Origin: Rickettsiales bacterium
GTDB taxonomy: Bacteria; Pseudomonadota; Alphaproteobacteria; Rs-D84
Direction: 5' to 3'
Length of the DNA stretch: 64,000 nt
NCBI GenBank assembly: GCA_031260805.1
Contig: JAISKV010000001.1
Coordinates: 122,600-186,599 of the forward strand
Within the stretch, counting starts at the first letter, position 1, and every line of letters starts with the position of its first letter. The notes under the pieces were generated by a model. The model was not told the origin of the DNA, did not search any database, and saw nothing but the letters and a program-made list of their open reading frames with translations. The translations under genes and the position numbers were made by a program. This document shows, one piece after another, positions 6,391 through 59,676 of the stretch.

Positions 6391-7209
6391 GTGAGAGAGC
6401 ATCTGTTGAAAAAATATTTATTCTTGTTTCTTTATTCTTTTTTCCTTTGCGCGTCCGCGCAGGCTGCCGTCACTATCAAAAAGGCCGAAGCCGTTCAAGA
6501 GCAAAAATCCAGCGGCGGATCTGCAACCGATTTTCTGGGGACCGCAATAAACCTGGGTACCGGCATTATTGCGATGAACAAGGATATGAAAGCGGTCAGC
6601 GCAGAATGCTATCCGACCGCGCCCGATATAACTTTTATTGAAAACACGATGAAGGAATACGCAAAAACCGGCGCGCAGGACAAATCTGGCATTTACGGGC
6701 GGCTGTCGCCGCGAACCCAATGCGTGACCAGCAATGGATATGGCGCGTATGTGGCTGAATATGGAAAAACGGCGGGCGCGCGTCCATGCTTTAATTTCTT
6801 TTCCGGATCCGGTGATAAAGATATGGTTTGGGATGGGTATCCGCGTGTGGGCACCGGGGTTATTTGTCCCAAGGGCGGCACGGATTGCGAGGCGCGCGAC
6901 CAGGAAAAAATAACAGACGCGTACGAGATTTTTAATCTGATTGAATTTGGCCCCGGCGATTACAAAACCGGCGAATTGACCCAGGCTACCAAATTGCTGG
7001 AAAAAGTGGAAGTTTGCAGCGATGCCAAAATTTCCGAAAAAAAGCGGCAAATGTGGATGGGCATGCTGAATACGACAATATCAAATATCGGCGCGAAACA
7101 GAGCAGCGGCGATGTTATGCAAACAGTGCAGTCTGTCGTTGGCGGTGGCGGCGGTGTGAATAGTTTGGGTGGCGTTGCCAGCATGATACCGGGAATTTTT
7201 GGGAAATAA
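6391..7209 (+). CDS. Secreted protein of unknown function
   Basis: Signal peptide LLKKYLFLFLYSFFLCASAQA coded by degenerate heptamers; Cys-containing ectodomain, Gly-rich C-terminus. Confidence 0.65.
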   Translation: MREHLLKKYLFLFLYSFFLCASAQAAVTIKKAEAVQEQKSSGGSATDFLGTAINLGTGIIAMNKDMKAVSAECYPTAPDITFIENTMKEYAKTGAQDKSGIYGRLSPRTQCVTSNGYGAYVAEYGKTAGARPCFNFFSGSGDKDMVWDGYPRVGTGVICPKGGTDCEARDQEKITDAYEIFNLIEFGPGDYKTGELTQATKLLEKVEVCSDAKISEKKRQMWMGMLNTTISNIGAKQSSGDVMQTVQSVVGGGGGVNSLGGVASMIPGIFGK

Positions 7210-11269: not shown

Positions 11270-12073
11270 TTATTTTACACACGATTTATAGCCGGCCGGC
11301 CGCATGCTGATTGGCAATTTATCGTTTAGTTCGCACGCATCATTAATGATTTCTTCAATATCATCAAAAATTTTATGCACATCTGTATAGTTTTTGGTAT
11401 TCAATTTTTTGGCTGCTTCAATATCATTTACCAAACTGTCTCGTTTTAATAAAAGTTCATCTTTTATGCCTGCTTCATCTTCATAATATTGTTTAATAAC
11501 TTCATTAAAACGGTTATATGAATCGGTATTTTCATTTATTTTGGCGGATGCCTTGTCCAGATTATCATAAAGCGCGTCGGCACTGTTAAACACAATATTA
11601 TAACGATCAAACAGAGAATTATTTTGCTGTTCCAGGATTTCGTTGTTCATTGCCAGAACATCGGCAGGACACAGGGCTCCATATTTGCCTAGATCAGCGT
11701 TTTTCTGTTTCAGCGCGGCACATTGCGCCACACGATTGCGGGTTGTGTTAATGTTTTTCTGCAAACCCTGCAACAACTGCCCGCCATTACGATAATTATC
11801 ATAAATTATGCTATAATTTTCATTATTAAGCATATGGGTTGTGACGACCAGATTATCATAAGCCCGTATTATAATCGCGATATTATATATGTCTTTATCA
11901 TTATCCCCCAAGACATCCGTGTCCTTGTATCTCTCATACGAAGCGGGTGTCGTATAACGCGAAACATCTGTTATTGTCATATTGTTGAAATCAGAAATAC
12001 TGACAGTGTCGTCGGCACGCGCAACCGGTAAAATTAAAAGATAAAAGATAAAAGATAAAAATATTTTCTTCAT
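11270..12073 (-). CDS. Secreted helical protein of unknown function
   Basis: Signal peptide MKKIFLSFIFYLLILPVARA, then mostly helical sequence. Confidence 0.7.
   Translation of the reverse strand: MKKIFLSFIFYLLILPVARADDTVSISDFNNMTITDVSRYTTPASYERYKDTDVLGDNDKDIYNIAIIIRAYDNLVVTTHMLNNENYSIIYDNYRNGGQLLQGLQKNINTTRNRVAQCAALKQKNADLGKYGALCPADVLAMNNEILEQQNNSLFDRYNIVFNSADALYDNLDKASAKINENTDSYNRFNEVIKQYYEDEAGIKDELLLKRDSLVNDIEAAKKLNTKNYTDVHKIFDDIEEIINDACELNDKLPISMRPAGYKSCVK
12037..12062 (-). repeat. (TTTTATC)n heptamer array inside signal-peptide codons
   Basis: aaaagataaaagataaaagataaaaa; encodes FIFYLL. Confidence 0.85.
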
Positions 12074-12138
12074 AATGTTTTGTTTTGTATGAATTGCGGG
12101 CGGGGCCCGCAATGACGATTGGCGGCGCCATGGTTTAT

Positions 12139-12846
12139 TTATGCCAGATTCAGAAAATCTTTCAATACTGCATCCGGACGATCAATATTTTGGTTGATTT
12201 CCAGATTAGAATCAACAATCGGGGCAGCGGATTGCGCTGTATCGCCGCAGTATGCGGCCAGGTCGGGTTTTATCGTATCTTCGCTGACGCCGTCTATTAA
12301 TCCATTTGTGCAACCCAATGATTGTGAAGCAGAGTTATTTTGCAGTTCGCAATTAATCGCGCCGTGTCCGCCAACACAATATTTGGCGAGCAATGCCCCC
12401 CCCTGATCCAAGGTGTTGGTAAATTCGGCAGACCGCTTGTTAATTTGTCCCCGTTCTGTTTCAGTCAAAGCGGCGGATACGGGTTGCTGTGTATTGGTCT
12501 GGACTGGTGTGTGGGCAACCGTGGTGGTGGTTGGCGTTGTGGCGACCCCTTTTTTCCGGGCATCGTACGCATTGTCAATCTGCTTTAATTCAGCGCAGAA
12601 TGTTTTATTGTTATCTTTGCCAGCGCCTTCGTTATCGCAGGTATCCTTGGTCAACAGGTCTTTTGCACCGCCGCCAACAGTCTTGGCAGCATTGCTAATC
12701 GCGCCGCCGGCTGTTTTGGCCGCGCCGCCAAGTCCCGACATAGCCCGTTGAATCAGGTTTGGTTTTTGGGCTGGCGTGGTGTCTTCGGCACGCGCAACCG
12801 GTAAAATTAAAAGATAAAAGATAAAAGATAAAAATATTTTCTTCAT
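12139..12846 (-). CDS. Secreted protein of unknown function with the same signal peptide as the upstream neighbour
   Basis: MKKIFLSFIFYLLILPVARAED; low-complexity Thr/Ala region; G8 tract at 12396-12403. Confidence 0.65.
   Translation of the reverse strand: MKKIFLSFIFYLLILPVARAEDTTPAQKPNLIQRAMSGLGGAAKTAGGAISNAAKTVGGGAKDLLTKDTCDNEGAGKDNNKTFCAELKQIDNAYDARKKGVATTPTTTTVAHTPVQTNTQQPVSAALTETERGQINKRSAEFTNTLDQGGALLAKYCVGGHGAINCELQNNSASQSLGCTNGLIDGVSEDTIKPDLAAYCGDTAQSAAPIVDSNLEINQNIDRPDAVLKDFLNLA
12809..12835 (-). repeat. (TTTTATC)n heptamer array inside signal-peptide codons
   Basis: Near-identical block to 12002-12075. Confidence 0.85.
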
Positions 12847-12859
12847 AATGTTTTGTTTT

Positions 12860-14359
12860 CTAAAACACCCGGTGCCATGTTTTTACTGTGAAATCACCGA
12901 CCCAATGCGCGCCGGAAATAACCGCATTCCAGAACGCATCAGTCCATTCGCCCAGTGTTATCCATGACCCGCCAATCCATTCGCCCAGTCCGTGCCAGAT
13001 ACCACTGACCACATTTGCGGCGCAGTGCCATGCGCATGCAACCCCGGAAATAACCGCATTCCAGAACGCATCAGTCCATTCGCCCAGCGTTGTCCATGAT
13101 CCGCCGATCCATTCGCCCAGACCTGTCCAGATTCCATTTGCAACCCATGCTGTCCAATGCCATGCAATCGCCAAGTATTTATATACCCAGACCGCAGCAT
13201 CCGCGGTTGCGTACCCGGCAATGACCAGTCCGCTGGCCGTCCAATCCCATGCTGCGTCGCCCCAGGCAACCAGTTTGCTGCCCAATCTGTTTAGAAAAGA
13301 TGGCGTTTGTGGTTCATCGGTTGCCGCTGGCCCCGCCGCGTCAGGCAAATATTCATGCGCCACGCTGTCGGCCGGGACGGTTATGGTTTCACGGACTTCT
13401 ACAATTTCAGCGTCATCCGCCGGGTAAGTCGTCGCGATCGCATGGGTTTCCATTACGACAATTTCATCAGGCGCGGCGACCGGCGCGATAACATCTTCCC
13501 TTTCCATCGCGATTTCAATAACCGGCTTGTCCGATTGCAATGATGGCGCGCGCGCTTCATACACATCTTCTTCGCCGCAATCCAGCACGCAGTTCATGTT
13601 GCGCCCGACGATTTCGCATTTGGAAATGCACTTGTTCGGCTGAGATGCGGAACTTTCAGAGTTCAGAACGCATTCGTTCTTTTTATAATTGTCATGCACG
13701 CGCGCGGCGAACCCGTTCACGCACTCAAAGTTCCGATCGCCGCCATAGCATTTCGCGTTGTCGGGACAGGTTCCGCTGCACCAGCCCTGGGGCGTGCCGT
13801 TCGCGCTGTGCACCATGTACGCGCCCAGCCGGCACAGATGCGCGACGCAGCGCCGTTCAATTTCTTTCCCGGTTTTGACATCCTGGCAGGTTGCAATTTT
13901 CGCGTTTGTCAGTTTGCATGCATCGCCGACGCCGCGGCCGATGCACTGGGGATCAGATTTGTTTATTTTTTTGGAACAAATCCGCAGGCTCATGTCATAC
14001 TCAAACCCGTCCGCACATTCCCAGCCCCAGAACGAAGTATTTGTCGCGCTGTTGGAATATTTTACGATTTTTGTATTTGATGGAATAACCGTGCCGTCAA
14101 AATAATCGGCATGATAAATGTTGTAATAACTCTTGCCGCTGGCCAGACAGGATGAAAATTTGCCATTATTTCCACAGTACCGGTAATTGCCGGATGAACA
14201 GTCAAAAATGCTGCCCAATGATTCCTGGACCAAGACGCCTTTGTCATCCGCGGCGCCGCAGCATAAATTCTTTTCCAAAAAGTTGTCGTAAATGCATTGC
14301 GAAAACGCTGCTGGCGAAAACAGCAGGACCCCGGCCAAGGCAATATATATTCTTTTCAT
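12860..14359 (-). CDS. Large secreted Cys-rich protein with Trp-rich C-terminal tandem repeat
   Basis: Signal peptide; many Cys; two copies of GLGEWIGGSWxTLGEWTDAFWNAVISG. Confidence 0.7.
   Translation of the reverse strand: MKRIYIALAGVLLFSPAAFSQCIYDNFLEKNLCCGAADDKGVLVQESLGSIFDCSSGNYRYCGNNGKFSSCLASGKSYYNIYHADYFDGTVIPSNTKIVKYSNSATNTSFWGWECADGFEYDMSLRICSKKINKSDPQCIGRGVGDACKLTNAKIATCQDVKTGKEIERRCVAHLCRLGAYMVHSANGTPQGWCSGTCPDNAKCYGGDRNFECVNGFAARVHDNYKKNECVLNSESSASQPNKCISKCEIVGRNMNCVLDCGEEDVYEARAPSLQSDKPVIEIAMEREDVIAPVAAPDEIVVMETHAIATTYPADDAEIVEVRETITVPADSVAHEYLPDAAGPAATDEPQTPSFLNRLGSKLVAWGDAAWDWTASGLVIAGYATADAAVWVYKYLAIAWHWTAWVANGIWTGLGEWIGGSWTTLGEWTDAFWNAVISGVACAWHCAANVVSGIWHGLGEWIGGSWITLGEWTDAFWNAVISGAHWVGDFTVKTWHRVF
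12913..13138. repeat. 135-bp-period direct repeat (two copies) coding the Trp-rich module
   Basis: gaaataaccgcattccagaacgcatcagtccattcgcccag...catccattcgcccag duplicated. Confidence 0.8.
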
Positions 14360-19470: not shown

Positions 19471-19497
19471 AAAAAACGGCCTTCGGGCCGTTTTTTT
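19471..19497 (+). terminator. Rho-independent terminator
   Basis: aaaaaacggccttcgggccgttttttt. Confidence 0.9.
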
Positions 19498-19526
19498 AAG
19501 GTTTAAGGTTTAAGGTTTAAGGTTTG
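19496..19526. repeat. (GGTTTAA)n heptamer tandem repeat, intergenic
   Basis: aaggtttaaggtttaaggtttaaggttt. Confidence 0.85.
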
Positions 19527-21758: not shown

Positions 21759-21990
21759 GTTCCCCTCCCTTGGAGGGGTGCCGCGTAGCGGCGGGGTGGT
21801 TTACAGGATTTATGATTTATGAAGTATGATGGATGGAATGACAAACTTGTTGTGAAACAAGGTTTAATGCCCTATGGCGGACTAAATCCGCCATGACAAA
21901 TTTTCTGACGAAAATTTGTAAAAATTGTACTCTGAACTTTACTTTTGTAAACCACCCCGGCCTTCGGCCACCCCTCCAAGGGAGGGGAAC
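21759..21990. repeat. Family C MITE-like element
   Basis: gttcccctcccttggaggggtgccgcgtagcggcggggtggtttacagg ... gtaaaccaccccggccttcggccacccctccaagggaggggaac. Confidence 0.85.
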
Positions 21991-24351: not shown

Positions 24352-26064
24352 TTATACCGGTTTAATTTCACCACGACGCAATACAAAGTCGTCCTGGGAT
24401 TCGTACATTGGCCATTTGCCTTCGGTCAATTCTGTTATTCCGCGCAATGGCTGGCCCAATCTGGCCCGGTACAGCCACAGGTTGGACAAGACTTTTTTCA
24501 CATAAGTTCGTGTTTCCGTGTTTGGAAAACTTTCAATAAACAGCAGCGGATCATCGGTCTGAAATGTCTTCTCGAACTTGGCCAGGGCCCCGTTTCCGGC
24601 ATTATAACTGATAAGCATTTTTATAATATTTCCGTCAACATTCGGCAGTTGCAGCAAATCAACAATGTGCTGCTGGCCGACGGACATGTTATGATTCGGA
24701 TTCGCCATGTCCAGTTCGCGGATATTCGGCGCGGTCAGTTTGGCGGTTTTCGGCATGATTTGCATGACGCCGTTCGCGCCTTTGACAGACTTGGCGGCGG
24801 TCTTGAATCCTGATTCCTGGCGGACGATTGCGAACAGCAATGCGCGGTCCAGGCTCCACCCGCCCAATGGCTCCCAGTCGGGCATAGGGTACTGGGCCGC
24901 CGAAATGACATCGTCGTCAATTTCCAAAATTCCGCGCGTCCGCACGACGCCCGCAACCTGCATCGCGGTCCGCGGCAGTTCAGCGGTCGTGGCCAGCGCG
25001 TGCACCGCGTGCAGTTGCTTGTCGCTGGCGTCCGCCGTTATCAGCAGGCGCAAGTATTGCTCGGCCAGCGCCGGCTGGCCCGCCTGCAAAGCGGCGACCG
25101 CATGCCGCCCGTATTTCGTGTTCATCAGTTTTTCAATGTCTTCGTCCGTCAATTCGTCTTCGTAAAAGTCATAACTGGTGGTCCAGCCCAGCGATGAATT
25201 TGACAGCGCGCCATAGAATGAAGCCGGACTGGCCGCGGCCGCGATTTTCCAATAATCGCGCGCAATGCCATAGTTGTCGTTCGCCTCGGCCGCGCGCGCC
25301 GCCCAGAACAAGACTTCGTTCTTGCGCAAATTGTTGATTTGCGGCAGGGCCAGCATTTGCTTGAAATATTGTTCCGCTGCCGGATACTCGCCATTTTTCC
25401 AAGACATCAGCCCCATGGTCCACAGCCCGTATTCAGATTTCGCGTCCGCCGCGATTGTCCCCCAATGCCGCGCAAAGTCAAAGTACCCGCCGCAGTAATA
25501 AATAAACGCCAGCCGTCCGGACAAGCGGCCGTAATCTTCCGCGGTCAGCGCTGCCGCGATTTTTTTATCCTGCAAAATATCCTTGGCATTTTTGGTGTTG
25601 CCGCGCCGCAGGGCATTCTTGAATTTCGTTATATTCTGCTCTGTCCCGGGTGAGTATTTTTTCGCGGTCCACGATTCGGATCTGGTGTTCTGCGCGGCCG
25701 CGCCGGATATGGTCGCGGGCAGTTTCGGCGCGCGCGCGCGGTCTGCGACCTTTTTGCGATGCGCCATTTTCATCATGTTGTCCGCGCCGGGCAGGGTATT
25801 GTTGACATACAGCCAGTTGATTATTTCCTGGCCGGTGGACCGGTAAGACCGGGACATGTATTTGTTGTACTGGACATCCGGGATTAAAATCCGATCGCTG
25901 ATGCGCGGTTCCAGTTTGGTTGCCGCGTCAATCTTTTCCTGCCGCTGCAACTCAAAAATCTGGGCGTATGTCTCGGCGTCCGATTCGGACAGCACAGTCG
26001 GCAACTGCGCCGCCAGAGCAGGCAAAGATAAAAGATAAAAGATAAAAGATAAAAATTTTTTCAC
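24352..26064 (-). CDS. Soluble lytic murein transglycosylase (SLT family)
   Basis: LDRALLFAIVRQESGFKTAAKSVKGANGVMQIMPKTAKLTA; GTG start overlapping nrdR stop; heptamer-coded signal peptide. Confidence 0.9.
   Translation of the reverse strand: MKKFLSFIFYLLSLPALAAQLPTVLSESDAETYAQIFELQRQEKIDAATKLEPRISDRILIPDVQYNKYMSRSYRSTGQEIINWLYVNNTLPGADNMMKMAHRKKVADRARAPKLPATISGAAAQNTRSESWTAKKYSPGTEQNITKFKNALRRGNTKNAKDILQDKKIAAALTAEDYGRLSGRLAFIYYCGGYFDFARHWGTIAADAKSEYGLWTMGLMSWKNGEYPAAEQYFKQMLALPQINNLRKNEVLFWAARAAEANDNYGIARDYWKIAAAASPASFYGALSNSSLGWTTSYDFYEDELTDEDIEKLMNTKYGRHAVAALQAGQPALAEQYLRLLITADASDKQLHAVHALATTAELPRTAMQVAGVVRTRGILEIDDDVISAAQYPMPDWEPLGGWSLDRALLFAIVRQESGFKTAAKSVKGANGVMQIMPKTAKLTAPNIRELDMANPNHNMSVGQQHIVDLLQLPNVDGNIIKMLISYNAGNGALAKFEKTFQTDDPLLFIESFPNTETRTYVKKVLSNLWLYRARLGQPLRGITELTEGKWPMYESQDDFVLRRGEIKPV
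26024..26055 (-). repeat. (TTTTATC)n heptamer array inside signal-peptide codons
   Basis: aaagataaaagataaaagataaaagataaaaa. Confidence 0.9.
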
Positions 26065-26567
26065 AACAACCGCCCGGTGTGTTTTGGCAATTCGCATGCA
26101 GAATCGACGGCGTCCGTTTCTGGAATGGTGTTCAGCAGTTTCTTGAAGTCCGAAATCCGGCTGAATTTGTTATACACCGACGCGAACCGCACGAACGCGA
26201 TTGCATCCAGGTTCAGCAAGGATTCCAGGACCATCTGCCCGATTGTTTCACTTGGAATGACTGAATCGGAATTTTCCGTTTCCAGGCGGCGGTGAATGGA
26301 ATTGACCAATTTTTCAATCTGTTCTTCGCTGATGTTCCGCTTGCGGCACGAGATTTTGATGGATTTCTTTAACTTTTCCCGGTCAAAAGGTTCCAGCGAG
26401 CCGTTGCTTTTATGGACAGAAAAATCGCGCAGGATTATCCGTTCAATGGTTATGAATTTAGCGCCGCAAGCACTGCAAATCCGTCGGCGGCGAATGGTGG
26501 AATCATCAATGTCAGGACGGCTGTCTTTGACTTGTGATTCAGTATTATTGCAATAAGGGCATCTCAA
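26061..26567 (-). CDS. nrdR: Transcriptional repressor NrdR
   Basis: MRCPYCNNTESQVKDSRPDIDDSTIRRRRICSACGAKFITIER. Confidence 0.97.
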   Translation of the reverse strand: MRCPYCNNTESQVKDSRPDIDDSTIRRRRICSACGAKFITIERIILRDFSVHKSNGSLEPFDREKLKKSIKISCRKRNISEEQIEKLVNSIHRRLETENSDSVIPSETIGQMVLESLLNLDAIAFVRFASVYNKFSRISDFKKLLNTIPETDAVDSACELPKHTGRLL

Positions 26568-28170: not shown

Positions 28171-28710
28171 TTAAAACTTTACATTGAAATCTGCGCGGAC
28201 GCCGCCGTCCAGCGTTGGCGAAACCATGACCGCAGGCGCTTCCATTCGCCCGACCAGCAGCCATGTATACAATCCGGCGACTGCCGCGCCGCCAGCCACC
28301 TGGTAAAAATAGTGCCAATCGGAATGAATCCGGCTGTATCCGGTCCATGCGGCCAATGCGTATGGCGCGATCGCCTGTTTCCAGCCGTATCTTTTATGAA
28401 TGAATGTCGCGGCGGAAAAAGCGCTGCTGGCATGCCCTGATGGGAATCCGTTTTTGCCGCCGTTCGGCCGCGGCGCATGGGTCAATTTTTGCAGTTCGCT
28501 GGTTGAAATAACAGTGGCCAGGTAAGCCCCGCCAAACTGCATCGTTCCGGTCCAGCCGTCTTCGCGAACCGCCATGCCCAACGCGTATGCGGGCAGGGCC
28601 AGTGTCAGAACATCGCCGGATTTCTCAATAAATCCCCCCCCCCCCCGCGCAACCACCGGCAAGACCGGTAAGATAATAATTAAAAGATAAAAGAGAATTT
28701 TTTTCATCAT
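28171..28710 (-). CDS. PAP2 superfamily membrane-associated phosphatase
   Basis: KNGFPSGHASSAFSAATFIHKRYGW...SRIHSDWHYFYQVAGG; G13 tract (28634-28646) codes RGGGG after the signal peptide. Confidence 0.8.
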   Translation of the reverse strand: MMKKILFYLLIIILPVLPVVARGGGGFIEKSGDVLTLALPAYALGMAVREDGWTGTMQFGGAYLATVISTSELQKLTHAPRPNGGKNGFPSGHASSAFSAATFIHKRYGWKQAIAPYALAAWTGYSRIHSDWHYFYQVAGGAAVAGLYTWLLVGRMEAPAVMVSPTLDGGVRADFNVKF

Positions 28711-30255: not shown

Positions 30256-31086
30256 GTGAATAAAAAACAAGCGTTTAATTTTTTATCAAAAAATCGTCAT
30301 TCCGGGCAAGCGCGTCAGCGCGCGACCCGGAATCCATGGGCCCCTGGCGGGGCCCGGGGTGACGAAATTAAAAATATCAAATATCTCTTGGACGAATTGC
30401 CCGAACGGGTGCCTTTGTGGAAATTATGGCTTATCCGGCGGCAGTTGCGGCGCGGGATGCCTGTATCCAAAATCATCGGACGCAAGTGGTTTTACGGGCT
30501 GGAATTTTCAACTGGCGCCGCGACGCTGGATCCGCGCCCAGATTCCGAGACCTTGGTAGAGGCAGCCATCCGCGCCGCGCGCCCCGGCGTCAGGATTTTG
30601 GATTTGGGAACCGGCACGGGCGCGTTGATCTGCGCGCTGGTTAAAAATATTCCCGGCGCATCAGGGGTCGGGATAGACCGGTCCCGCGCCGCATTGCGCG
30701 TCGCGCGGAAAAATGTTCATCGGCTGGGATTGGATGACAATGTCAGTATTTGCAAAGGCTCTTTCATAAATCATAAAATAAATCAGAAATTTGACATCAT
30801 TGTTTCTAATCCGCCGTACATCGCGACCGGCGATGCCCGGGTTGACCGGTCGGCGAAATTTGACCCAAAGATCGCGCTGTATGCCGGGGCGGACGGGTTG
30901 AAGTTTTATCGTGAAATCGCGATTGCCGCGCGCGGATTGATGGCTGAAAACGGAAAAATATTTTTGGAAATCGGCGCGGACGCGGGCGCGGCCGTGCGGG
31001 AAATCTTTGCCGCCGCCGGCTGGCGGTTCGTGTCCGGTTCCAACGACCTGGCCGGTCTGGAAAGGGTTCTGGAATTTATGCAATAA
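30256..31086 (+). CDS. prmC: PrmC/HemK peptide chain release factor N5-glutamine methyltransferase
   Basis: LDLGTGTGALICAL; SNPPYIATGDA; N-terminal region contains an in-frame family A remnant. Confidence 0.9.
   Translation: MNKKQAFNFLSKNRHSGQARQRATRNPWAPGGARGDEIKNIKYLLDELPERVPLWKLWLIRRQLRRGMPVSKIIGRKWFYGLEFSTGAATLDPRPDSETLVEAAIRAARPGVRILDLGTGTGALICALVKNIPGASGVGIDRSRAALRVARKNVHRLGLDDNVSICKGSFINHKINQKFDIIVSNPPYIATGDARVDRSAKFDPKIALYAGADGLKFYREIAIAARGLMAENGKIFLEIGADAGAAVREIFAAAGWRFVSGSNDLAGLERVLEFMQ
30293..30366. repeat. Family A variant lying inside prmC coding sequence
   Basis: atcgtcattccgggcaagcgcgtcagcgcgcgacccggaatccatgggcccctggcggggcccggggtgacgaa; compare 45884-45960. Confidence 0.8.
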
Positions 31087-31552: not shown

Positions 31553-33736
31553 GTGAGAAAGTCTTTTATCTTTTATCTTTTAATTTGCATTTTTATGCAG
31601 GCTGCGCCTGCAAATGCCGCCACGCGCGGCGATTCAACAGTTTCCAGGTCCGGCGTCGCCACCACGGTGGTCAATCGCGCCGCGGCCGCGCCCGTTTCCG
31701 CATCGCGTGCGAACGCGTCTGCGGTTTCGGCGCGCGTCGCGGCCGCGCCGCGAATTTCAACGGCGCCCGTCCAATCGCGCGCGGGGATTGTTCCGCGATC
31801 CGCGCAGATTTCGCGCGCGGTGCTGCCGTCCGCTTCTATCGCGCTGGGCGACGGGTACAATGTCTGCCGCGATTCATATTTCACCTGCATGGATCAGTTT
31901 TGCGCGACCGCGGATGATGACTATCGCCGGTGCATTTGTTCCAGCCGCCTGGATGCGATTAAAAAGAAAGAACTGGCCCTTGCCAACACCACGGGCAGTC
32001 TGAAAGATTTCCAAGACCTGAACATGGATGTTATTTCCAAATCCACGGCCGATGTCAAGGCGATGCTGAAAGCATCCGATGGTGAAAAAATCGCGACGAC
32101 CAAAAAAGACACCAGCGAATCCGCGCAGAAACTGGCCGGGATTTCCAGCGTGCTGAACTCTGCCAAGAACACCGCGCTGTCCACCGGGGGCAAGTTGGAT
32201 ATCGCGGGCAGCATAAACCAGATTTTCAACGCATCCGATTTAATCGGCGGCGTTGATATTTCCGGATTGTCCGGCGCGCGGCTGTACAACGCGGTGCACG
32301 GGCAATGCGCTGAATTTGCAAAAAATGCCTGCGCGACGAATTCAATCATGAACATGGCGGTGTCGGCGTACGGAATGTATATTGAAAACGATTGCAGCCT
32401 GATGTCAAACAATCTGGCCGCGAAACAGATCGCGGCCGCGGGCGCGATACGGCAACAGGAAGCCGCGATGCACGAAGAACGGCTGGCCAACTATGATTCG
32501 CATAATTCGTCGGGAATCAACGACTGCGTGGCCGCGGTGCGCAAGGATATAACCGGTGAATCGGCGTGCGGGCCGAACTTTGTGCATTGTCTGGATGTAA
32601 CAGGGCGGTTCCTGAACAAGGACACCGGCGAACCTATTTATACCGCCGATTTTTACAAGTTGGAACGGGCGACCACGCTGGATGCGAACGATGTCTTGAT
32701 TGCCCAAGAAAACCGTCTGCTGGTGTCGCAGTTGCAAAAGCAAAAGGATTTTGCGAAAAAAAGCCTGGACACTTGCCGCGATTTATCAAAAGATGTCTGG
32801 GAAGAGTTTTTGCGCCAAGCCGTGACAGAAATTTATCAGGCCCAGCAGGCCCGCATCGCCCAGGTCAAAGACGAATGCATGGTCGTCATCAACGAATGCT
32901 ATAACACGCAGCTCAGCCAATTAAAGGATTTTAGCAATGTGGATAAAAACAAACTGCTGGGGATGCGGATTGAATTATCCGAAGATTTGTGCCAGACGCG
33001 GCTGGACACTTGCGCGCTGGTCTATACCGGCGGCGCGCCAGGACTGACGGAATTGCGCGACGCGCTGTACAATTATAATTCGCTGCAAATCGCGGACACT
33101 TGCAAAACGACCGTGGGGAACTATGCGTCAGAGTTGTGCAGGCCGCTGTCATCGGATACTTTGCACAAATATCCGTACGGGTGCCGTATGTATCGGCGCG
33201 GAATGTATAGCAAGGCGAACGGGTGCAGGGGTAAAACTGTGGTAATCACCCAATCCCAGTCAGGTGACGGCGGCAGCGGTGGGGCCACCCCGCCGGTTGA
33301 TCCTGTACCGCCCCCCAGCGGCGGATATCAATGCACGATGTGCTATACCAGTTGTAATCCGGGGTATCAGTTTGCTGACGCAAGTGCGGCTTGCAAGCAA
33401 TGCGTTCCGGCCGATGTTATGGCGCAATTGGAAGAATGTTCGGATTATTCGGGCAGTCTGTACGAGATGCTGGTCAACTATGCGGTGAATATGTGCGTGC
33501 GGCCGTCATTGCAGACAGACCTGGAAACTGTTCCGGAAAATATTCTGGCCGATATCAACAGCGTTATGGACTCTCTGTCTGTCAATATGACAGTGATATT
33601 GCGCACGGAATGCGAAGGCATGGGCGGCACTTGGAAAGATAACAAGAGTTCGGCGACGCCGGAACCCGCCAGATTGAATTCGTATGAAAAGAATGTAAAT
33701 TCCAATGACGATTGGGGATATTGCTATAATCCGTAA
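31553..33736 (+). CDS. Large secreted Cys-rich protein, paralogue of 34762-36915
   Basis: GTG start; signal peptide RKSFIFYLLICIFMQAAPANA; CRDSYFTCMDQFCATADDDYRRCICSSRL. Confidence 0.75.
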   Translation: MRKSFIFYLLICIFMQAAPANAATRGDSTVSRSGVATTVVNRAAAAPVSASRANASAVSARVAAAPRISTAPVQSRAGIVPRSAQISRAVLPSASIALGDGYNVCRDSYFTCMDQFCATADDDYRRCICSSRLDAIKKKELALANTTGSLKDFQDLNMDVISKSTADVKAMLKASDGEKIATTKKDTSESAQKLAGISSVLNSAKNTALSTGGKLDIAGSINQIFNASDLIGGVDISGLSGARLYNAVHGQCAEFAKNACATNSIMNMAVSAYGMYIENDCSLMSNNLAAKQIAAAGAIRQQEAAMHEERLANYDSHNSSGINDCVAAVRKDITGESACGPNFVHCLDVTGRFLNKDTGEPIYTADFYKLERATTLDANDVLIAQENRLLVSQLQKQKDFAKKSLDTCRDLSKDVWEEFLRQAVTEIYQAQQARIAQVKDECMVVINECYNTQLSQLKDFSNVDKNKLLGMRIELSEDLCQTRLDTCALVYTGGAPGLTELRDALYNYNSLQIADTCKTTVGNYASELCRPLSSDTLHKYPYGCRMYRRGMYSKANGCRGKTVVITQSQSGDGGSGGATPPVDPVPPPSGGYQCTMCYTSCNPGYQFADASAACKQCVPADVMAQLEECSDYSGSLYEMLVNYAVNMCVRPSLQTDLETVPENILADINSVMDSLSVNMTVILRTECEGMGGTWKDNKSSATPEPARLNSYEKNVNSNDDWGYCYNP
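31563..31583 (+). repeat. (TTTTATC)n heptamer array inside signal-peptide codons
   Basis: cttttatcttttatcttttaa. Confidence 0.85.
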
Positions 33737-33740
33737 GTGA

Positions 33741-33776
33741 AAAAAGATAAAAATTAAAAGATAAAAGATAAAAAAT
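33741..33776. repeat. Intergenic copy of the agataaa/tttatct heptamer array
   Basis: aaaaagataaaaattaaaagataaaagataaaaaa. Confidence 0.75.
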
Positions 33777-34019
33777 GTGGTAAAATAATAACCAAAAGGT
33801 GAAATTGATAATAATGACCTGGATTCCGGGTCGCGCGCTGACACGCTTGCCCGGAATGACGATGGGGATGGTTTGGACTGTGATGGGGCGGGGTATTTAT
33901 TTTGTAATGAGAGTATCAAGGCCTTTGTCACCCCGGGCCACGCCCCGGGGCCATTCCGAATGGAATACGGCGGCAAAGTTGCAGAAATAACGATAAGGAC
34001 CGGTTTTTATAAATAAAAA

Positions 34020-34721
34020 ATGAAACGGATATTATTCATTATTCATTATTCATTATTAATTGCGCTTTGCACGCATGGCGTGCAGGGCGCGTCGTGGTGG
34101 GACCAGGAAACGATTTGCAAAATCAATCCGGCGCAATGCTATGTCAGCATGGGGGCCGGATTTAACAATCAATTGTGGGATTCCATCGGCAAATGCTGGG
34201 GGATGAAATTGATTTGTCCGGATGCGTTGGTTGCGGCGTCCGGCCAGCCGATCGCCTTGGAAAAGCGCAAGATTGAAACGAACACCGGAATCCGCGAAGA
34301 TTATGATACTGGAATTTTGGGCGATGACGGCGATTGCTTTGGCGCGCGCAAGACCAGCGGCGGCGGATACGCGACCGTGAACGGCAGCCAGGTCAAGATC
34401 TGGTGCGATGGAATTTTAAGCAATGCGACGGAATCGGTATCCGGCGGCGAAATCACCACAGGGGTTCAGCCGACCTGCGCGGCCCTGGCGGCGGACGGAT
34501 ATGTTTCTGTGCTGAATGGCGGATGCTGGGGAAAATCTTATCCGGCGTCGCAGTATTATATTGAATGCGGGGCAGGGGAAACGCCGCTGCGCATCATAGC
34601 ATTGAACGGGACGAACGATTACGGTGCGACTGGGACGGCAATGACGCCGGATGCCGCGCAGAACCTGATGCAAACGATGTTCGAGACCAGCCAGGTAAAG
34701 CGCAAAGAGCGCTTTAAGTAG
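34020..34721 (+). CDS. Secreted protein of unknown function
   Basis: Signal peptide MKRILFIIHYSLLIALCTHGVQG; several Cys. Confidence 0.7.
   Translation: MKRILFIIHYSLLIALCTHGVQGASWWDQETICKINPAQCYVSMGAGFNNQLWDSIGKCWGMKLICPDALVAASGQPIALEKRKIETNTGIREDYDTGILGDDGDCFGARKTSGGGYATVNGSQVKIWCDGILSNATESVSGGEITTGVQPTCAALAADGYVSVLNGGCWGKSYPASQYYIECGAGETPLRIIALNGTNDYGATGTAMTPDAAQNLMQTMFETSQVKRKERFK
34031..34058 (+). repeat. (ATTATTC)n heptamer array inside signal-peptide codons
   Basis: attattcattattcattattcattatta. Confidence 0.9.
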
Positions 34722-34726
34722 GTCTA

Positions 34727-34747
34727 GGGTTTAAGGTTTAAGGTTGT
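34727..34747. repeat. (GGTTTAA)n heptamer repeat, intergenic
   Basis: gggtttaaggtttaaggttg. Confidence 0.75.
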
Positions 34748-34761
34748 AGGGGGAGAGGGTT

Positions 34762-36915
34762 ATGAAAAAAATATTATTCATTATTCATTATTCATTATTC
34801 ATTGCATTTGCGGCATTCGCCGCAAATGCGGATGATCGCGCGACCGCGCAGCCTTATGATGAAACGCGCGTCGGGGTGCGCGCGAATGCCGCCGCGCGGA
34901 TGCCTTCGGTTTCCGGCATAAATCTGACAGCAGGCGTGAATCTGTCCGCCCCGGATGAAGGCGGCGGAATCATACGATCGTCGCCTGTTCCGAAATCCAA
35001 GCCGGATGACAAGCCCGGTGATAAAAAGCCTGACGACAAGCCGGCCGAACCAGTTATTGACGAAGCCGCGTGTCGCGAAAACTATCGTTCATGCATGGAT
35101 GACTTCTGCTTGCTGGGCGAAGGAGAGGGCGGCCGTTGCGCGTGCAGCGCGAACATAAACGCGTCGCAATCCAAGATAAAGGAAATTTCCGATATCCAGG
35201 CCAAGGCGGAAAAGGCTTTTGGCGCTGGTGTTGAATACGAAAAATTAGGGGCCAAGGCGATGCTGGTATTCGGGGCGTCCGGCGCGGCGAAATCCAAGCG
35301 GATTGACTGGGCCGCATGGATGAACGGCCAATTGGGGACCAGCGGCGGATTGGACAGCGACGAAATGCTGGGCGACGATTTGTATGCGGCCGCGGTGGAA
35401 AATTGCGCGACGAAATTAAAAGCCTGCGGACCTATTGCCGGGATGGAAGAAATCCTGTACGGCCGCATGGTTACCGCGGATTGCAAGAGTTTTGATTCGT
35501 TGCTGAAAAATCAAAAGAAAATCGCCGAAGACAACTTGGCTATTGCTGAAAAGGCCGTCCGCACCGCGCGCCTGGAAATGCTGGACAACACGAACAAATA
35601 CAATCGCGGCGAATGCTTGCTGGCGTACCGTTCGTGCATCGCGGACAAGGGCGGATGCGGCGCGAATTTTGAGAATTGCTTGGATGAAGATCTGCTGGGC
35701 CGCCGCGCGAACGCATGCGGCGATGTTTTGGATCAGTGCATGGCGGTGAAAACCTATGTGCTGAAAGACTGGCAAGACGAATCGGAAATGATATTAAAGG
35801 AAGCCGCCAAATACGCCGACAAAAACATGCGGTCAACATGCCTGGCCAAGACGCAGCTCTGCCTGGAAGATTCATGCCAGAAGTCAACCGATTCGCTGTG
35901 TCTGGACAATGTTTCCACGGCGGCCGGAATCTGCCCGATTATTGACGAATGCAACGGCAAGATTTCCGGATTCAAGAGCGGTATCAATGACAAACTGGGA
36001 TTCCTGCGCGTAAAATTCTGCGAGAATGATATTGACAAATGCTTGCAGGACAAATGCGGCGCGAACTATGACAAGCCGGAATGCGTCGGAAGAAAGACCA
36101 GCGAAATCGTCGCGATGTGCCCGCAAAACATGTTCCCGTCCTGCAAAGGGCAAGAGCAATTTGATGTTATCGTGTCCGCTGCGCTGCTGCAAATGGATTA
36201 CCAGATGATGCGCGGGTGCATCAACTATTTCAGCGAGCAGTTGGGGCGCGCATGCGGAACGGACATGTCTTGCCTGCCCGAAGACGATGCGATTCTGAAC
36301 ATGGCCAGCAGCACGCAGAAAATAGACTGGCGCGCGAATGCGGACAAGACCGTGAACGAGTTTTTCAAGCAGTTCGAGAAAGATCAGACCATTGCGGCCT
36401 GCAACGATGCCAAGAAACCCGCGGGCCGGTCCTCGTTGGGCGCCAGCGTGTTCAATACCGCGAAACTTATCGCGCAGATAAACGCCGAATCGCGCGCGTT
36501 CCGCCAATATGTTTCCAAGCGCGCGGAATTGTCGCGCCGGGAAGATACCGACAGCGCGCGCAAAACCTGCGAAGCGATGAAGGCCGAAGATCCTTGCAAG
36601 GACGGCAAGTGCGACAAAGACGGCGGCCTGCGCGTGGTCAGCGTCGTGTTTGAGCCGTCATTGCGCAACTGCCACATCTGCCGCGCGCAGAAAGTATGCG
36701 AGGTTGGGGGCGAGTCCAAGGCGGCATCAGCGGCGAAAATGGCGGCCGGGGCTGGCGTTGCGGGCGCTTCAATCGGAACCCAGGTCTCGCCGGGATGGGG
36801 AACAGCCATCGGCGGCGCGGTTGGAATTGTCGGCGGCATAATCGGGGGAATGTCCACCGGGGGTGAAAAAGAATTCTGCCAGGATGTGGAATCCTGTGAA
36901 GATGTAAATATGTAA
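34762..36915 (+). CDS. Large secreted Cys-rich protein with glycine-zipper-like C-terminus
   Basis: MKKILFIIHYSLFIAFAAFAANA; CRENYRSCMDDFCLLGEGEGGRCACSANI; C-terminal GWGTAIGGAVGIVGGIIGGMSTGG. Confidence 0.75.
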   Translation: MKKILFIIHYSLFIAFAAFAANADDRATAQPYDETRVGVRANAAARMPSVSGINLTAGVNLSAPDEGGGIIRSSPVPKSKPDDKPGDKKPDDKPAEPVIDEAACRENYRSCMDDFCLLGEGEGGRCACSANINASQSKIKEISDIQAKAEKAFGAGVEYEKLGAKAMLVFGASGAAKSKRIDWAAWMNGQLGTSGGLDSDEMLGDDLYAAAVENCATKLKACGPIAGMEEILYGRMVTADCKSFDSLLKNQKKIAEDNLAIAEKAVRTARLEMLDNTNKYNRGECLLAYRSCIADKGGCGANFENCLDEDLLGRRANACGDVLDQCMAVKTYVLKDWQDESEMILKEAAKYADKNMRSTCLAKTQLCLEDSCQKSTDSLCLDNVSTAAGICPIIDECNGKISGFKSGINDKLGFLRVKFCENDIDKCLQDKCGANYDKPECVGRKTSEIVAMCPQNMFPSCKGQEQFDVIVSAALLQMDYQMMRGCINYFSEQLGRACGTDMSCLPEDDAILNMASSTQKIDWRANADKTVNEFFKQFEKDQTIAACNDAKKPAGRSSLGASVFNTAKLIAQINAESRAFRQYVSKRAELSRREDTDSARKTCEAMKAEDPCKDGKCDKDGGLRVVSVVFEPSLRNCHICRAQKVCEVGGESKAASAAKMAAGAGVAGASIGTQVSPGWGTAIGGAVGIVGGIIGGMSTGGEKEFCQDVESCEDVNM
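34773..34803 (+). repeat. (ATTATTC)n heptamer array inside signal-peptide codons
   Basis: attattcattattcattattcattattcatt. Confidence 0.92.
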
Positions 36916-36918
36916 TAA

Positions 36919-37019
36919 GTTCCCCTCCCTTGGAGGGGTGGCACGAAGTGCCGGGGTGGTTTACATAGCCGCTCTGTAAATCACCCCGCCCTGCGGGCAC
37001 CCCTCCAAGGGAGGGGAAC
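36919..37019. repeat. Family C MITE-like element, short form
   Basis: gttcccctcccttggaggggtggcacgaagtgccggggtggtttac...gtaaatcaccccgccctgcgggcacccctccaagggaggggaac. Confidence 0.85.
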
Positions 37020-37034
37020 AGAGATTAGAACAAA

Positions 37035-38807
37035 ATGAGAAAAATAATATTCATTATTCATTATTCATTATTCATTGTATTTGCGGCGAATGCCGCAAAT
37101 GCCGCCCCCCAGGTCATGTCAAACTATGGCAAGATTCAGAATGTCCAGAATTATTCCAATAATCCTTTCTATAACATGAACGGGCCGTACAACCAGGGCG
37201 TGCCGATTGTCGTGAACGCCAAGGGGACGGAAGTCAAGACAAACGAATGTCAGATTATTGTCGGCGGCTTGGTTGCGGCGGAATGCTCGCGCATGAACAA
37301 CTGCGCCGGCAAAATGGCAAGCGATATTCGCCCCGGCGTCATGGTTGCGCTGTCGCAGATGAACGGGCATAATTACGCCGGATCCTGCGGCGGATACATT
37401 GACACGGCGTTTAATGATTATGTGAAAAACCGCGGCGGGGGCAATTTTGGCGCGAATGCTTTTCCGGGGCAATTTCCAGCCGCGGCCGCGCGCAATGAAA
37501 TAGTGTACGCCGACGCGTCGCCTGCGGCTGCGCCGAAATGGATACAAGATTACATTGCGAAATCTGTGGAATTGTCCGGGTTAAAGGCTGAAAATGCCGA
37601 AGACACGACGCTGCACGCAACAAAAATGCCGAAAACGATAAACGATGTTTCATTTGCGGATCGGGTCGCGAATATGAAGGCCGGGTACGCGCCGTACAAA
37701 GATGCGTCCGCGTATGTCCCGATTAAAATAGAAACTGATGAAAATTATGCCGGCCGCATGTCAGATATCGCCAAGACCAAAGCCAAGGCTGCGGAAGATG
37801 TCGCCAAGGCCCAGATAGCGCAGATTGCCGCGGAAGACGCGCTGGAACAAAAAATGAATCCTTGCGGCTGGTGCGAAAAGAATGACCAGGCTTGCCGCGC
37901 CAACATAGAAAAGACAAAAATCTCACGCAATAAGGATAATATACTGGATTATTGCAATCGCGGCGATATGACCGCCGCGGCGCCGCAGTTCAAGGAGTTA
38001 AAATGCATGGCCGCCAGCCAGGAGCCAGAATGCAATGGCCAGACTGGGTGTTATGTCCTGGTGAATGATGCGGATAATCCGGCCAGTTTGACGGCGGATA
38101 ATTGCGCGGAATTAAAACGCCAAAAACAGAAGCAAGAACAAGATAGAAATCGCGCAACAGCGGAAAAACAACAGAAAATCGCCCAGTGCCGTATAATTTT
38201 GGAACAGTTGAACAAGGCAAAATTAGACGCGGCGTGCGTGGACGCATCTGATCCTGCGAATATAAAATACTTGGCAAAAGCGACCATACAAAGATGGATT
38301 TTATATGAAGATGGTTTGACAGATGATAAATTGATCGCATGCTTGAATAAAGATGACGCTAATTTTGGTACTAGTGATGATGCCAAAGGCATAGATTTGG
38401 CCGCTGAGCGTGAAGAAGTCTGTCCATCTTATATCGGAATAACATCAGCATCGTCAACTACTCCATCAAGTACAACGCCGCCCCCCCCCACCACCAATGA
38501 AAGTTATGCGTTTTGCGTTACATATACCAGCGATAATTGCATAAATCAGATAATAGCAAGTCAACCGACTATAACATTTACTGAAAATGATGTTGAATCG
38601 GGCAGTGGAAGAAAGTGCATCAGTTTCACAGGGATGGATCGCGCTGCGGCTTTATCATTATTCAGCACAGTTAGGGAAGACAATCATGATGATAACGGCG
38701 GCGGCAATTGCGATGGGAATCCTTGGCATAATATGGATTTGGAATTGTATGTGCAGCAAGCATCAGGTTCCTGGACAAGAATAGCAAAGAAAGTTCTGGA
38801 CGATTAA
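37035..38807 (+). CDS. Secreted protein of unknown function
   Basis: MRKIIFIIHYSLFIVFAANAANA; Cys-containing; C9 tract at 38481-38489. Confidence 0.72.
   Translation: MRKIIFIIHYSLFIVFAANAANAAPQVMSNYGKIQNVQNYSNNPFYNMNGPYNQGVPIVVNAKGTEVKTNECQIIVGGLVAAECSRMNNCAGKMASDIRPGVMVALSQMNGHNYAGSCGGYIDTAFNDYVKNRGGGNFGANAFPGQFPAAAARNEIVYADASPAAAPKWIQDYIAKSVELSGLKAENAEDTTLHATKMPKTINDVSFADRVANMKAGYAPYKDASAYVPIKIETDENYAGRMSDIAKTKAKAAEDVAKAQIAQIAAEDALEQKMNPCGWCEKNDQACRANIEKTKISRNKDNILDYCNRGDMTAAAPQFKELKCMAASQEPECNGQTGCYVLVNDADNPASLTADNCAELKRQKQKQEQDRNRATAEKQQKIAQCRIILEQLNKAKLDAACVDASDPANIKYLAKATIQRWILYEDGLTDDKLIACLNKDDANFGTSDDAKGIDLAAEREEVCPSYIGITSASSTTPSSTTPPPPTTNESYAFCVTYTSDNCINQIIASQPTITFTENDVESGSGRKCISFTGMDRAAALSLFSTVREDNHDDNGGGNCDGNPWHNMDLELYVQQASGSWTRIAKKVLDD
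37047..37076 (+). repeat. (ATTATTC)n heptamer array inside signal-peptide codons
   Basis: atattcattattcattattcattattcatt. Confidence 0.9.
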
Positions 38808-44911: not shown

Positions 44912-45856
44912 ATGAGAAAATTATCTTTAATCTTTTACCTTTTGATTTTTGTCTGCCCGGCATGGGCCGCGGGCCTGAACGACGCGTATTACGGCGGCGG
45001 CGATGTGTATACCGAATACACGGAAACGCCGGTCGCGTCATACTATGCGGTGCCGAACGACCCGAACTTTGTTCCGGAATCAGACTTTTCCGCGCGCGAA
45101 GACTCGTTGAACTATGACGAAAATATCATCGCGGCGCGCGATGCGGAATCCGCGCGGCATCCCGGCGTCATTTTTGCCGAACGCCCGGCGGTCGTGTGCC
45201 GCAGCGGCGGGTGCACCAAATTGAACGAGAAAATGACGCGGACATTCCTGTTTAATTCGCTGGCGAATATCTTTATGATTAACAGCCATTCCAGTGTCCA
45301 GATTTGCGAGGCGGACCCGTTCAGCCGCAATTGCCTGCAATCAGGGATTTCTTTTCCGACGCGCATCGGGGTAGCGAACGCGATGCTGAAAATATCCAAA
45401 GCGTCCGTGTCCAGTGTGAACATTTCTACAGGGTTGTCCAAGGCGACCATTGGAACGACTTTCGAGATTCTGGTGAATGGGATTTCGTCCCGGTGCGAGC
45501 CAACCGCGCTGGATATCATAGTGCCGATAAATTCCCAGGCAACATTAACTGCGCGGGAATTTGCGTGCAAAATGACTGCGGACGGATTGACAAATGTCTC
45601 AATGATGCTGAATCTGGATTATATTGATTTGGATTATGGGATTCTGGGCGGGTATTACTCGTTCGGATTGCAAGGGACCAGCGCGGGCGGCGGCACTGGA
45701 TACGCATTGTTCAGATTGGAATATACAAATACTGGAATGAAAATGAATGCGGTTGAAACGGGATATAACCGTGGCGGCCGAACTGCGAAAAGCGTGGAAC
45801 AGGCAGGATTGCAAACGATCCAGCCCGGCGAATACGCCGTGGAACCAGTAAAATAA
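44912..45856 (+). CDS. Secreted protein of unknown function
   Basis: Signal peptide MRKLSLIFYLLIFVCPAWA with degenerate heptamer coding (tttaatcttttaccttttgattttt). Confidence 0.7.
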   Translation: MRKLSLIFYLLIFVCPAWAAGLNDAYYGGGDVYTEYTETPVASYYAVPNDPNFVPESDFSAREDSLNYDENIIAARDAESARHPGVIFAERPAVVCRSGGCTKLNEKMTRTFLFNSLANIFMINSHSSVQICEADPFSRNCLQSGISFPTRIGVANAMLKISKASVSSVNISTGLSKATIGTTFEILVNGISSRCEPTALDIIVPINSQATLTAREFACKMTADGLTNVSMMLNLDYIDLDYGILGGYYSFGLQGTSAGGGTGYALFRLEYTNTGMKMNAVETGYNRGGRTAKSVEQAGLQTIQPGEYAVEPVK

Positions 45857-45960: not shown

Positions 45961-46061
45961 TGGGGGTAGTTTATTGCGAAAATGGTAATTCTTCGTCAGA
46001 AGGGAACTGGCCGCGCCAATCCAACTGAACACTAGAAACCGAACTCTGAACTCTGAAAACT

Positions 46062-54736: not shown

Positions 54737-54906
54737 GTTCCCCTCCTATGGAGGGGTGGCCGCAGGCCGGGGTGGTTTACAGGATTTATGATTTATGAAG
54801 TATGATTTAAGGATGTGATGCATTTTTGTATTTCTTAATTAAACTTTGGTAAACCACCCCGTCTTTTTTGTTTCACAAAAAATCCACCCCTCCACAGGAG
54901 GGGAAT
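54737..54906. repeat. Family C MITE-like element abutting recO
   Basis: gttcccctcctatggaggggtggccgcaggccggggtggtttacagg ... gtaaaccaccccgtc...ccacccctccacaggaggggaat. Confidence 0.82.
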
Positions 54907-57375: not shown

Positions 57376-58986
57376 ATGTACAAAAAAATTAATAAATCTG
57401 CCTTGTCGGTCTTGGTCGCTGTCGGGGTTTTCAGTGTATGCGGGGGGGGGGCGTGGGCCGCAATTACTGCGCCAACAGTTGGTGATGATACGACTTATGA
57501 TGGTCAAGCGACGGCAATCAGCGGAATAATTTCCGGCAGTGTGAATTTTGATGCTGGTCAGCAGCAGGATCTGGGTGATATGATGAACCAGGCCGCTTCC
57601 ATCGTTGACGGCGTTGTGTCCAGCACAAACACAGCATTATCAAATCTGACAAGTGATATAAATGCCGCAGATACGGCATTGTCAGATGCAATAACAAGTA
57701 ATGCATCTGACATCTCAGATTTGAGCGACGCGGTTTCAGATTTGAGTGATGCGGTTGACGCAAATACTTCTGACATTTCTAATTTGAGCGATGCAGTTGA
57801 TGCAAATACTTCTGACATTTCTAATTTGAGCGATGCGATTGACGCAAATACTTCTGACATTTCTAATTTGAGCGATGCAGTTGATGCAAATACTTCCGAT
57901 ATTTCTAACCTGAGCGATGCGGTTGATACAAATACTTCCAACATTGCACAAAATACATCTGACATTTCTAATTTGAGCGATGCGGTTGATACAAATACAT
58001 CTGACATTTCTAACCTGAGCGATGCGGTTGCTTCTAATACAACTGACATTTCAGATTTGAGTGATGCGGTTGACGCAAATACTTCTGACATTTCTAATCT
58101 GCAATCTGATATGAGTGATGCACAAACAGACATCTCTAACTTGCAGAGCGATATGAGTGATGCACAGACAGATATTTCTAATCTGCAATCTGACATGACC
58201 ACTGCACAGACAGATATTTCTAACTTGCAGAGCGATATGGTGCAGGCACAATCCGATATTTTACAAAATGCATCAGACATTGCCACGGTTTCCAATAACT
58301 TGACCACGGTTTCCAATGATTTGGATGCACTGGAAACAATTGTTGGCGACGGTAATTTGGCCGCGGCCACGAACGCCAGCGTTTCATCGGCGGCTGACCT
58401 GACCGGCGGCTTGCTGGCGCTGGACAGCGTTGTCGGAAACAAGGCTGATCTGTCCAACGCGGTTAATGCTAATGTGAAGACAGCCGGAACTTTGACAGAC
58501 GCGATTGCAGCGGTTGACAGCAATGTTGGCACGATTTCCAACTTGTCCGGCCAGAACAACGGCTTGGGCAACCTGGTTGCCGCGGTTAACGCGAACGAAG
58601 CCCGCATCACCATCAACGAGGCCGATATCCTGTCGCTGAACAACTATACCGGAATCGGAACACCGTTGGCTAACGGCGCGCTGAATCTGGCGGATGGAAT
58701 CAACGCAAACTACTATGCAATCGGCGCGGTGAACAACCGAGTCAACAAGTTGGAAAAGGAATTCCAGGGCGGAATGGCGTCAATGGCGGCTATGTCGGCA
58801 TTGGTTCCGAACGCGCGCGCGAACGGCGATACTTCTCTGTCGTTCGGCACGGGAACTTACCAGAGCCAGTATGGTATTGCGGCAGGCGTGTTCCACTATG
58901 TCAGCGATAATGTCTTGCTGAATGCAGGCGCTTCGTACAGCCGTGATAACTTTGCCGGCCGCGCAGGTATAACATTCAGCTGGTAA
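57376..58986 (+). CDS. Trimeric autotransporter adhesin-like (YadA-type) protein
   Basis: Signal peptide; 14-residue stalk repeats LSDAVDANTSDISN / LQSDMSDAQTDISN; YadA-like anchor ending NAGASYSRDNFAGRAGITFSW; G10 tract at 57442-57451. Confidence 0.88.
   Translation: MYKKINKSALSVLVAVGVFSVCGGGAWAAITAPTVGDDTTYDGQATAISGIISGSVNFDAGQQQDLGDMMNQAASIVDGVVSSTNTALSNLTSDINAADTALSDAITSNASDISDLSDAVSDLSDAVDANTSDISNLSDAVDANTSDISNLSDAIDANTSDISNLSDAVDANTSDISNLSDAVDTNTSNIAQNTSDISNLSDAVDTNTSDISNLSDAVASNTTDISDLSDAVDANTSDISNLQSDMSDAQTDISNLQSDMSDAQTDISNLQSDMTTAQTDISNLQSDMVQAQSDILQNASDIATVSNNLTTVSNDLDALETIVGDGNLAAATNASVSSAADLTGGLLALDSVVGNKADLSNAVNANVKTAGTLTDAIAAVDSNVGTISNLSGQNNGLGNLVAAVNANEARITINEADILSLNNYTGIGTPLANGALNLADGINANYYAIGAVNNRVNKLEKEFQGGMASMAAMSALVPNARANGDTSLSFGTGTYQSQYGIAAGVFHYVSDNVLLNAGASYSRDNFAGRAGITFSW
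57717..58245 (+). repeat. 42-bp tandem repeats coding the adhesin stalk
   Basis: ttgagcgatgcggttgatgcaaatacttctgacatttctaat and ctgcaatctgatatgagtgatgcacagacagatatttctaa units. Confidence 0.88.
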
Positions 58987-59563: not shown

Positions 59564-59676
59564 GTTAGAGTTCAGAGTTCAGTAATTTGCCATCCATCGT
59601 CATTTTTATCTTTCGCTCTGTTATGCTGTTTATCACTTTTTTGACAGTCGTCATTTTCGCTCTAAACTATCCCCCC

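Follow-up and report, generated by a model that had tools for sequence, protein, structure and literature searches.

Heptanucleotide tandem arrays as recurrent coding sequence of predicted signal peptides in a Rickettsiales bacterium and its relatives

Introduction

Tandem repeats with a unit of 7 nucleotides are known from several bacterial groups, including the short tandemly repeated repetitive (STRR) sequences of Calothrix, the GGGAATC and GGGGAYT repeats of Xanthomonas and Nostoc, respectively (PMC4692102), and the TAACTGA repeats of the Beggiatoaceae (PMC4679880). Repeats located within signal peptide-coding regions have been described in Neisseria, namely, (CTCTT)n in opa and (AAGC)n in autA and autB (PMC5354566, PMC3960869, PMC5118866). 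With free slippage of such a repeat, about one-third of the alleles are expected to be in frame, as has been described for autA (PMC5118866). In Haemophilus influenzae, hmw1A is associated with an (ATCTTTC)n repeat of 13 to 24 units (PMC8262952). Here, we report on heptanucleotide arrays that encode the hydrophobic region (h-region) of predicted signal peptides in a Rickettsiales bacterium (assembly GCA_031260805.1). The arrays were noticed in a stretch of 64,000 nucleotides (positions 122,600 to 186,599 of contig JAISKV010000001.1), referred to as the window, the positions of which are used below. The window forms the end of a 186.6-kb contig in a draft genome of 729 kb and has a GC content of 51%; a permuted tmRNA of the alphaproteobacterial type was found with the window genome.

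Results

The words TTTTATC and ATTATTC form exact arrays at seven loci of the window, as claimed in an earlier note on this DNA, and all seven are located at codons 3 to 14 of a good signal peptide. On the reverse strand, (TTTTATC)3.7 arrays are present in the h-regions encoded by open reading frames (ORFs) 11270-12073 (MKKIFLSFIFYLLILPVARA; array at 12035..12060) and 12139-12846 (array at 12808..12833), and a (TTTTATC)4.4 array is present in the signal peptide of a soluble lytic transglycosylase (ORF 24352-26097, SLT domain E=1.8e-19; array at 26024..26054). The forward strand carries (TTTTATC)3.0 in a cysteine-rich protein with a GTG start (ORF 31553-33736; array at 31562..31582), (ATTATTC)3.9 in ORF 34020-34721 (34031..34057), (ATTATTC)4.4 in a second cysteine-rich protein (ORF 34762-36915; 34773..34803), and (ATTATTC)4.1 in ORF 37035-38807 (37048..37076). 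TTTTATC translates as IFYLLSF and ATTATTC as HYSLFII, and both words are stop-free and hydrophobic in every register, as the note had stated. Three degenerate TTTTATC arrays had also been proposed. Two of these hold, in a PAP2-family protein (ORF 28171, ATG at 28710; reverse strand, 28668..28695, limits approximate) and in ORF 44912-45856 (forward strand, 44921..44943), whereas that of ORF 6391-7209 (forward strand, 6417..6444) is a degenerate array of the TTTATTC type, which belongs to another family.

Arrays were censused in a 411-kb sample representing 56% of the source genome (G000), and the main words were searched as patterns in the whole genome. Gene starts and signal peptides were predicted heuristically by a simple in-house rule rather than by SignalP; the predicted array-bearing signal peptides display a charged n-region, a hydrophobic h-region, and an A-x-A or lipobox site. 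In the window, (TTTTATC)2 and (ATTATTC)2 with at most one mismatch occurred 11 and 9 times, compared to 0.03 and 0.04 occurrences expected from shuffles, respectively. In the sample, period 7 was the only overrepresented one: it accounted for 62 arrays with 2 or more units and 19 with 3 or more, and every other period from 2 to 30 for at most 11 and 2 arrays, respectively, so that the excess of 7-nucleotide units, as in STRR sequences, holds both over expectation and over other unit lengths.

Runs of at least 9 nucleotides of identity at a lag of 7 were detected in 18 of 105 signal peptide h-regions, compared to a mean of 0.81 (maximum, 3) under a synonymous-codon null (200 runs) and of 0.12 under codon permutation. 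None of the 105 h-regions contained such a run at the control lags 4 to 6 and 8 to 11, and none of 186 internal transmembrane segments contained one at lag 7 (signal peptides versus transmembrane segments, Fisher p=4e-9). The codon nulls and the transmembrane segments rule out codon or hydrophobicity bias as the sole cause of the repeats. In the whole genome, signal peptides accounted for 3 of 3 (TTTTATC)3 loci, 4 of 4 loci matching the ATTATTC pattern, and 5 of 6 TTTTCAC loci. The earlier proposal of a recurring signal peptide module is supported, and the effect is stronger than first noted: 19 arrays of the sample lie in signal peptides and 14 in all other coding sequences (approximately 348 kb), so that signal peptides are by far the richer of the two in arrays.

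The 89 arrays of the sample are mainly intergenic (56 arrays), as are STRR sequences, and their flanks are dispersed over the genome, although 19 are located in signal peptides. The location of the arrays goes with the translation of the word. Words with stops on both strands (AAACCTT, AACTAAT, AAGAATT, etc.) formed 29 intergenic arrays, 1 array in a signal peptide, and 1 in another coding sequence. For open polar words, the corresponding numbers were 10, 0, and 8, and for open hydrophobic words they were 17, 18, and 5. Coding arrays outside signal peptides look like insertions (VKSEKLKVKSEK, NSELCTLN, and FRVQGSEFR). Since arrays also occur between ribosomal protein genes and inside mature proteins, they cannot be regarded as a marker of secreted or surface genes only. 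A few words dominate: TTTTATC accounts for 7 of the 19 signal peptide arrays in G000, two words account for 12 of 13 in the relative G045, and these words are common to intergenic arrays.

Intergenic arrays of the window include a forward-strand TAAAAGA array of the TTTTATC word family (33755..33773), (TTTAAGG)4.4, which has stops on both strands (19495..19525), and (GGTTTAA)2.6 of the same word family (34728..34745). (GAACTCT)2.4 is located at 46041..46057, and (GATTTAT)2.3 at both 21807..21822 and 54783..54798, the latter with flanks that are dispersed elsewhere too. (AGAGTTC)2.3 (59567..59582) has a CTGAACT array facing it at 59802-59827.

Relatives sampled in the same bacterial family (coded G001 to G052, etc.) were represented by one genome per species. 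(TTTTATC)3 was not found in 40 relatives, which rules out a single word as a family-wide module; in other genera, the role is filled by CTTATGC/CTATGCT, TTGTTCA, TTTTGCC, TTTATTC, and CTGTTAT. In G045, an independent replicate that belongs to another genus and uses CTTATGC and CTATGCT, lag-7 runs were present in 12 of 48 signal peptides and in none of 83 transmembrane segments; the values for its congener G041 were 5 of 102 and 0 of 218. Runs of 9 or more nucleotides were absent from all h-regions of G052, G011, and G017, genomes that have few intergenic arrays; G011 and genus g11 (G052) are nearly array-free and have ordinary signal peptides. The word also differs between orthologues. The signal peptide of DacA contains TTTTCAC in G000, TTGTCAC in G001, TTGTTCA in G013, CTGTTAT in G002, TTTTGCC in G017, TTTATTC in G004, and CTATGCT in G045, and no repeat in the sampled genomes of the large genus g11. 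The transglycosylase word likewise differs between genomes or is absent. Between G041 and G045, arrays of orthologous signal peptides were kept, swapped, or lost, in frame every time. Outside the family, ATTATTC-type signal peptides (MKKIFIIHYSLFI...) were found in Bacteroidales and in one Moranbacteria metagenome-assembled genome.

Like contingency loci based on simple sequence repeats (SSRs), the arrays lie in the 5' coding region and have a unit that is not a multiple of 3. The reading frame was surveyed in G000, G045, G041, and G013. Wherever a gene next to an array had a usable start upstream, the array was in frame (45 ON calls), and a combination of in-frame and out-of-frame alleles was not found among these genomes. 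An explicit search for OFF copies in the same four genomes returned six candidates, none of which was convincing: these arrays in another frame were called from TTG or GTG codons only, and the three of G000 lay upstream of genes of the ribosomal protein region. Signal peptide arrays span 16 to 31 nucleotides, i.e., 2.3 to 4.4 units. The genes carrying them include those for BamA-like (POTRA/Omp85), LolA, TolB, BamB-like, DacA (S11), SLT transglycosylase, and LpoB proteins; these are core envelope genes rather than the dispensable surface or adaptive genes typical of phase variation, although several array genes are uncharacterized.

The carriers had been described as unrelated, but the cysteine-rich proteins of ORFs 31553 and 34762 share a domain (E=1e-15) and bear different words. 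Neither of them has a Pfam match, and the latter has 6 to 19 matches per genome in all 96 genomes sampled from the bacterial family.

Other repeats were observed in the window. A palindromic element of the GTCATTCCGGGCAAGCG...CGCTGACGCGCTTGCCCGGAATGACG type is dispersed at 30290-30340, at 33820-33960, and elsewhere, sometimes within predicted N termini (ORFs 30256 and 28171). ORF 57376-58986, which resembles a surface protein gene, encodes 14-residue repeats (NTSDISNLSDAVDA) from 42-nucleotide tandem repeats, and ORF 12860-14359 contains two copies of a 132-nucleotide in-frame tandem repeat (12912-13165). The contig ends in a run of 27 G residues (63974-64000), which looks like a sequencing or assembly artifact.

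Discussion

The arrays are probably best explained by a proliferating pool of heptamer repeats that is filtered by translation and settles in signal peptide h-regions. The genome would hold a pool of short heptanucleotide arrays with a few dominant words per lineage. These arrays may originate by slippage-like duplication, for which we lean on the 7-nucleotide step discussed in PMC4679880 and PMC4692102 with reference to Mrazek et al. (2007), and may be dispersed by recombination or template switching. They would last where the sequence is tolerated, and the main tolerant site within genes would be the h-region of Sec signal peptides: a T-rich heptamer is expected to encode a stop-free hydrophobic heptapeptide in any entry register, so that 2 to 4.4 units could supply most or all of an h-region. 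Sorting by translation would leave words with stops on both strands between genes and direct hydrophobic words to signal peptides and polar words to loops of mature proteins. Array-containing signal peptides are predicted to work as ordinary ones and would be kept in frame by selection. Turnover is fast, orthologous signal peptides gaining, losing, and swapping words between genera, and spread within the genome occurs at least partly through copying of signal peptide cassettes.

The earlier note had proposed that gain or loss of one unit acts as an ON/OFF switch for secretion-target genes. Such phase variation would come about through slipped-strand mispairing, a frameshift after the signal peptide turning each secreted protein ON or OFF in the manner of opa and autA/autB. 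The length of the unit fits this scheme, a one-unit change would end 19 of 19 signal peptide-array genes examined early (after 6 to 123 codons), and Neisseria SSRs in signal peptide-coding regions act in this way. Phase variation is nevertheless highly improbable here. In the absence of selection, about one-third of the arrays should be ON, and the frame survey gave 45 ON calls, with none of the OFF candidates being convincing. The arrays are short in comparison to the 13 to 24 heptamers of hmw1A (PMC8262952), and orthologues often lack the repeat altogether. The carriers also include BamA, LolA, TolB, and DacA. These proteins belong to the core set of bacteria and are in part essential. The ON/OFF claim is therefore not supported; the uniform frame, the array length (16 to 31 nucleotides), and the core envelope function of the carriers indicate that the arrays most likely act as constitutive predicted signal peptides.

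How the arrays reached the signal peptides can be envisioned differently. The ribosome-binding region and signal peptide may have been moved together by gene conversion or template switching at a shared ATGAAAAAA start, the repeats being mainly hitchhikers or homology handles. ORFs 11270 and 12139 fit this scheme, since they share 75 identical nucleotides, which begin 13 nucleotides upstream of the ATG and finish with the signal peptide (12012..12086 and 12785..12859, reverse strand), whereas their mature proteins are unrelated; two neighboring genes at C6:22.4 and 23.2 kb have near-identical signal peptide segments, and the related proteins 31553 and 34762 bear different words. Such shuffling is possible but somewhat unlikely as the general origin, because the array alone is common to most array signal peptides, with at least 30 nucleotides of identity in only 3 pairs of G000, because arrays of the same words also stand alone between genes, and because the different words found at the same signal peptide between genera would still call for a source of arrays. 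Duplication of 7-mers in place within T-rich h-regions, with no dispersal, would take advantage of the T content of signal peptides (42%, versus 31% in transmembrane segments) and of a slippage step of 7 nucleotides, which has been proposed to be favored (Mrazek et al. 2007, as cited in PMC4679880 and PMC4692102). This origin is unlikely, since a few dominant words per genome are common to signal peptide and intergenic arrays, and since the signal peptides of g11, which by eye are also hydrophobic and T-rich, are array-free, indicating that a hydrophobic T-rich signal peptide is not sufficient for arrays to form. A role at the nucleic acid level, such as hairpin formation between inverted copies across the start codon or help from U-rich mRNA in membrane targeting, is suggested by four near-identical intergenic segments of the ribosomal protein cluster (L018:18253-18330, L018:19511-19590, L019:810-890, and L019:3572-3650), in which facing TTTTATC and GATAAAA arrays could fold into hairpins immediately upstream of ribosomal genes, and by reverse CTTATGC copies that lie approximately 42 to 12 nucleotides upstream of two CTTATGC signal peptides in G045 (L180 and L181) and could pair over the start. 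Most signal peptide arrays have no such partner, however, and many relatives with the same genes lack the arrays, making this role very unlikely.

Several observations weigh against a translation-filtered pool. The density of arrays in signal peptides (18 in 4.4 kb) exceeds the intergenic density (approximately 1 per kb), so that mere tolerance may not suffice, and arrays may be positively selected or preferentially inserted at signal peptides. In the Bacteroidales genomes that have ATTATTC-type signal peptides, most other arrays of this word are intergenic. The census rests on 56% of the genome, the signal peptide and gene start calls are heuristic, and the mechanism generating the arrays was not seen.

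The proposed translation-filtered pool implies that a "junk" tandem repeat has repeatedly been adopted as functional coding sequence at one type of site, by lineages that are independent of each other and use different words. It provides a testable rule, the translation of a word deciding where its array can live, and would account for the odd recurrent N termini FIIHYSLFI, FYLLSF, LFTFHFSL, and LMPYALCL of unrelated bacteria. It also calls for caution, since the mere presence of such arrays within genes is no evidence for phase variation. More tentatively, heptamer arrays might serve generally as a source of new signal peptides that is indifferent to frame: since a 7-nucleotide word is read in each of the three frames in turn, approximately 3 units of any such array following a lysine-rich start could become an h-region, and active lineages might keep rebuilding the signal peptides of their secretome from a few words, convergently across phyla.

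The use of heptamers as a signal peptide module had been considered undescribed. Repeats in signal peptide regions are known from opa (CTCTT) and autA/autB (AAGC), and we found no description of heptamer arrays in this role, in a search from which subscription journals were mostly absent and which is not proof of absence. The arrays resemble known heptanucleotide SSR and STRR sequences in that the unit has the same length, copies are few (two to six in Maribeggiatoa), each genome uses a small number of words, several of them at once, the location is mostly intergenic, and the occurrence is scattered across distant phyla. They differ from these intergenic or near-start repeats in that a considerable proportion of the arrays in coding sequences lies in signal peptide h-regions and that the word is predicted by its translation. 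The hmw1A repeat also has a 7-nucleotide unit, similar in composition, and precedes a gene for a secreted protein, but it is located in the promoter, comprises 13 to 24 units, and exerts graded transcriptional control. The arrays share with opa and autA/autB a tandem unit that is not a multiple of 3 within the signal peptide-coding region. In Neisseria, one repeat serves one family of surface adhesins, counts vary among isolates, and both ON and OFF alleles exist, whereas the arrays described here are short, occur on many core envelope genes, are all ON, and have different words in orthologues. Thus, heptamer arrays and signal peptide repeats were known separately, and what appears to be new is their systematic, convergent combination with words sorted by translation.

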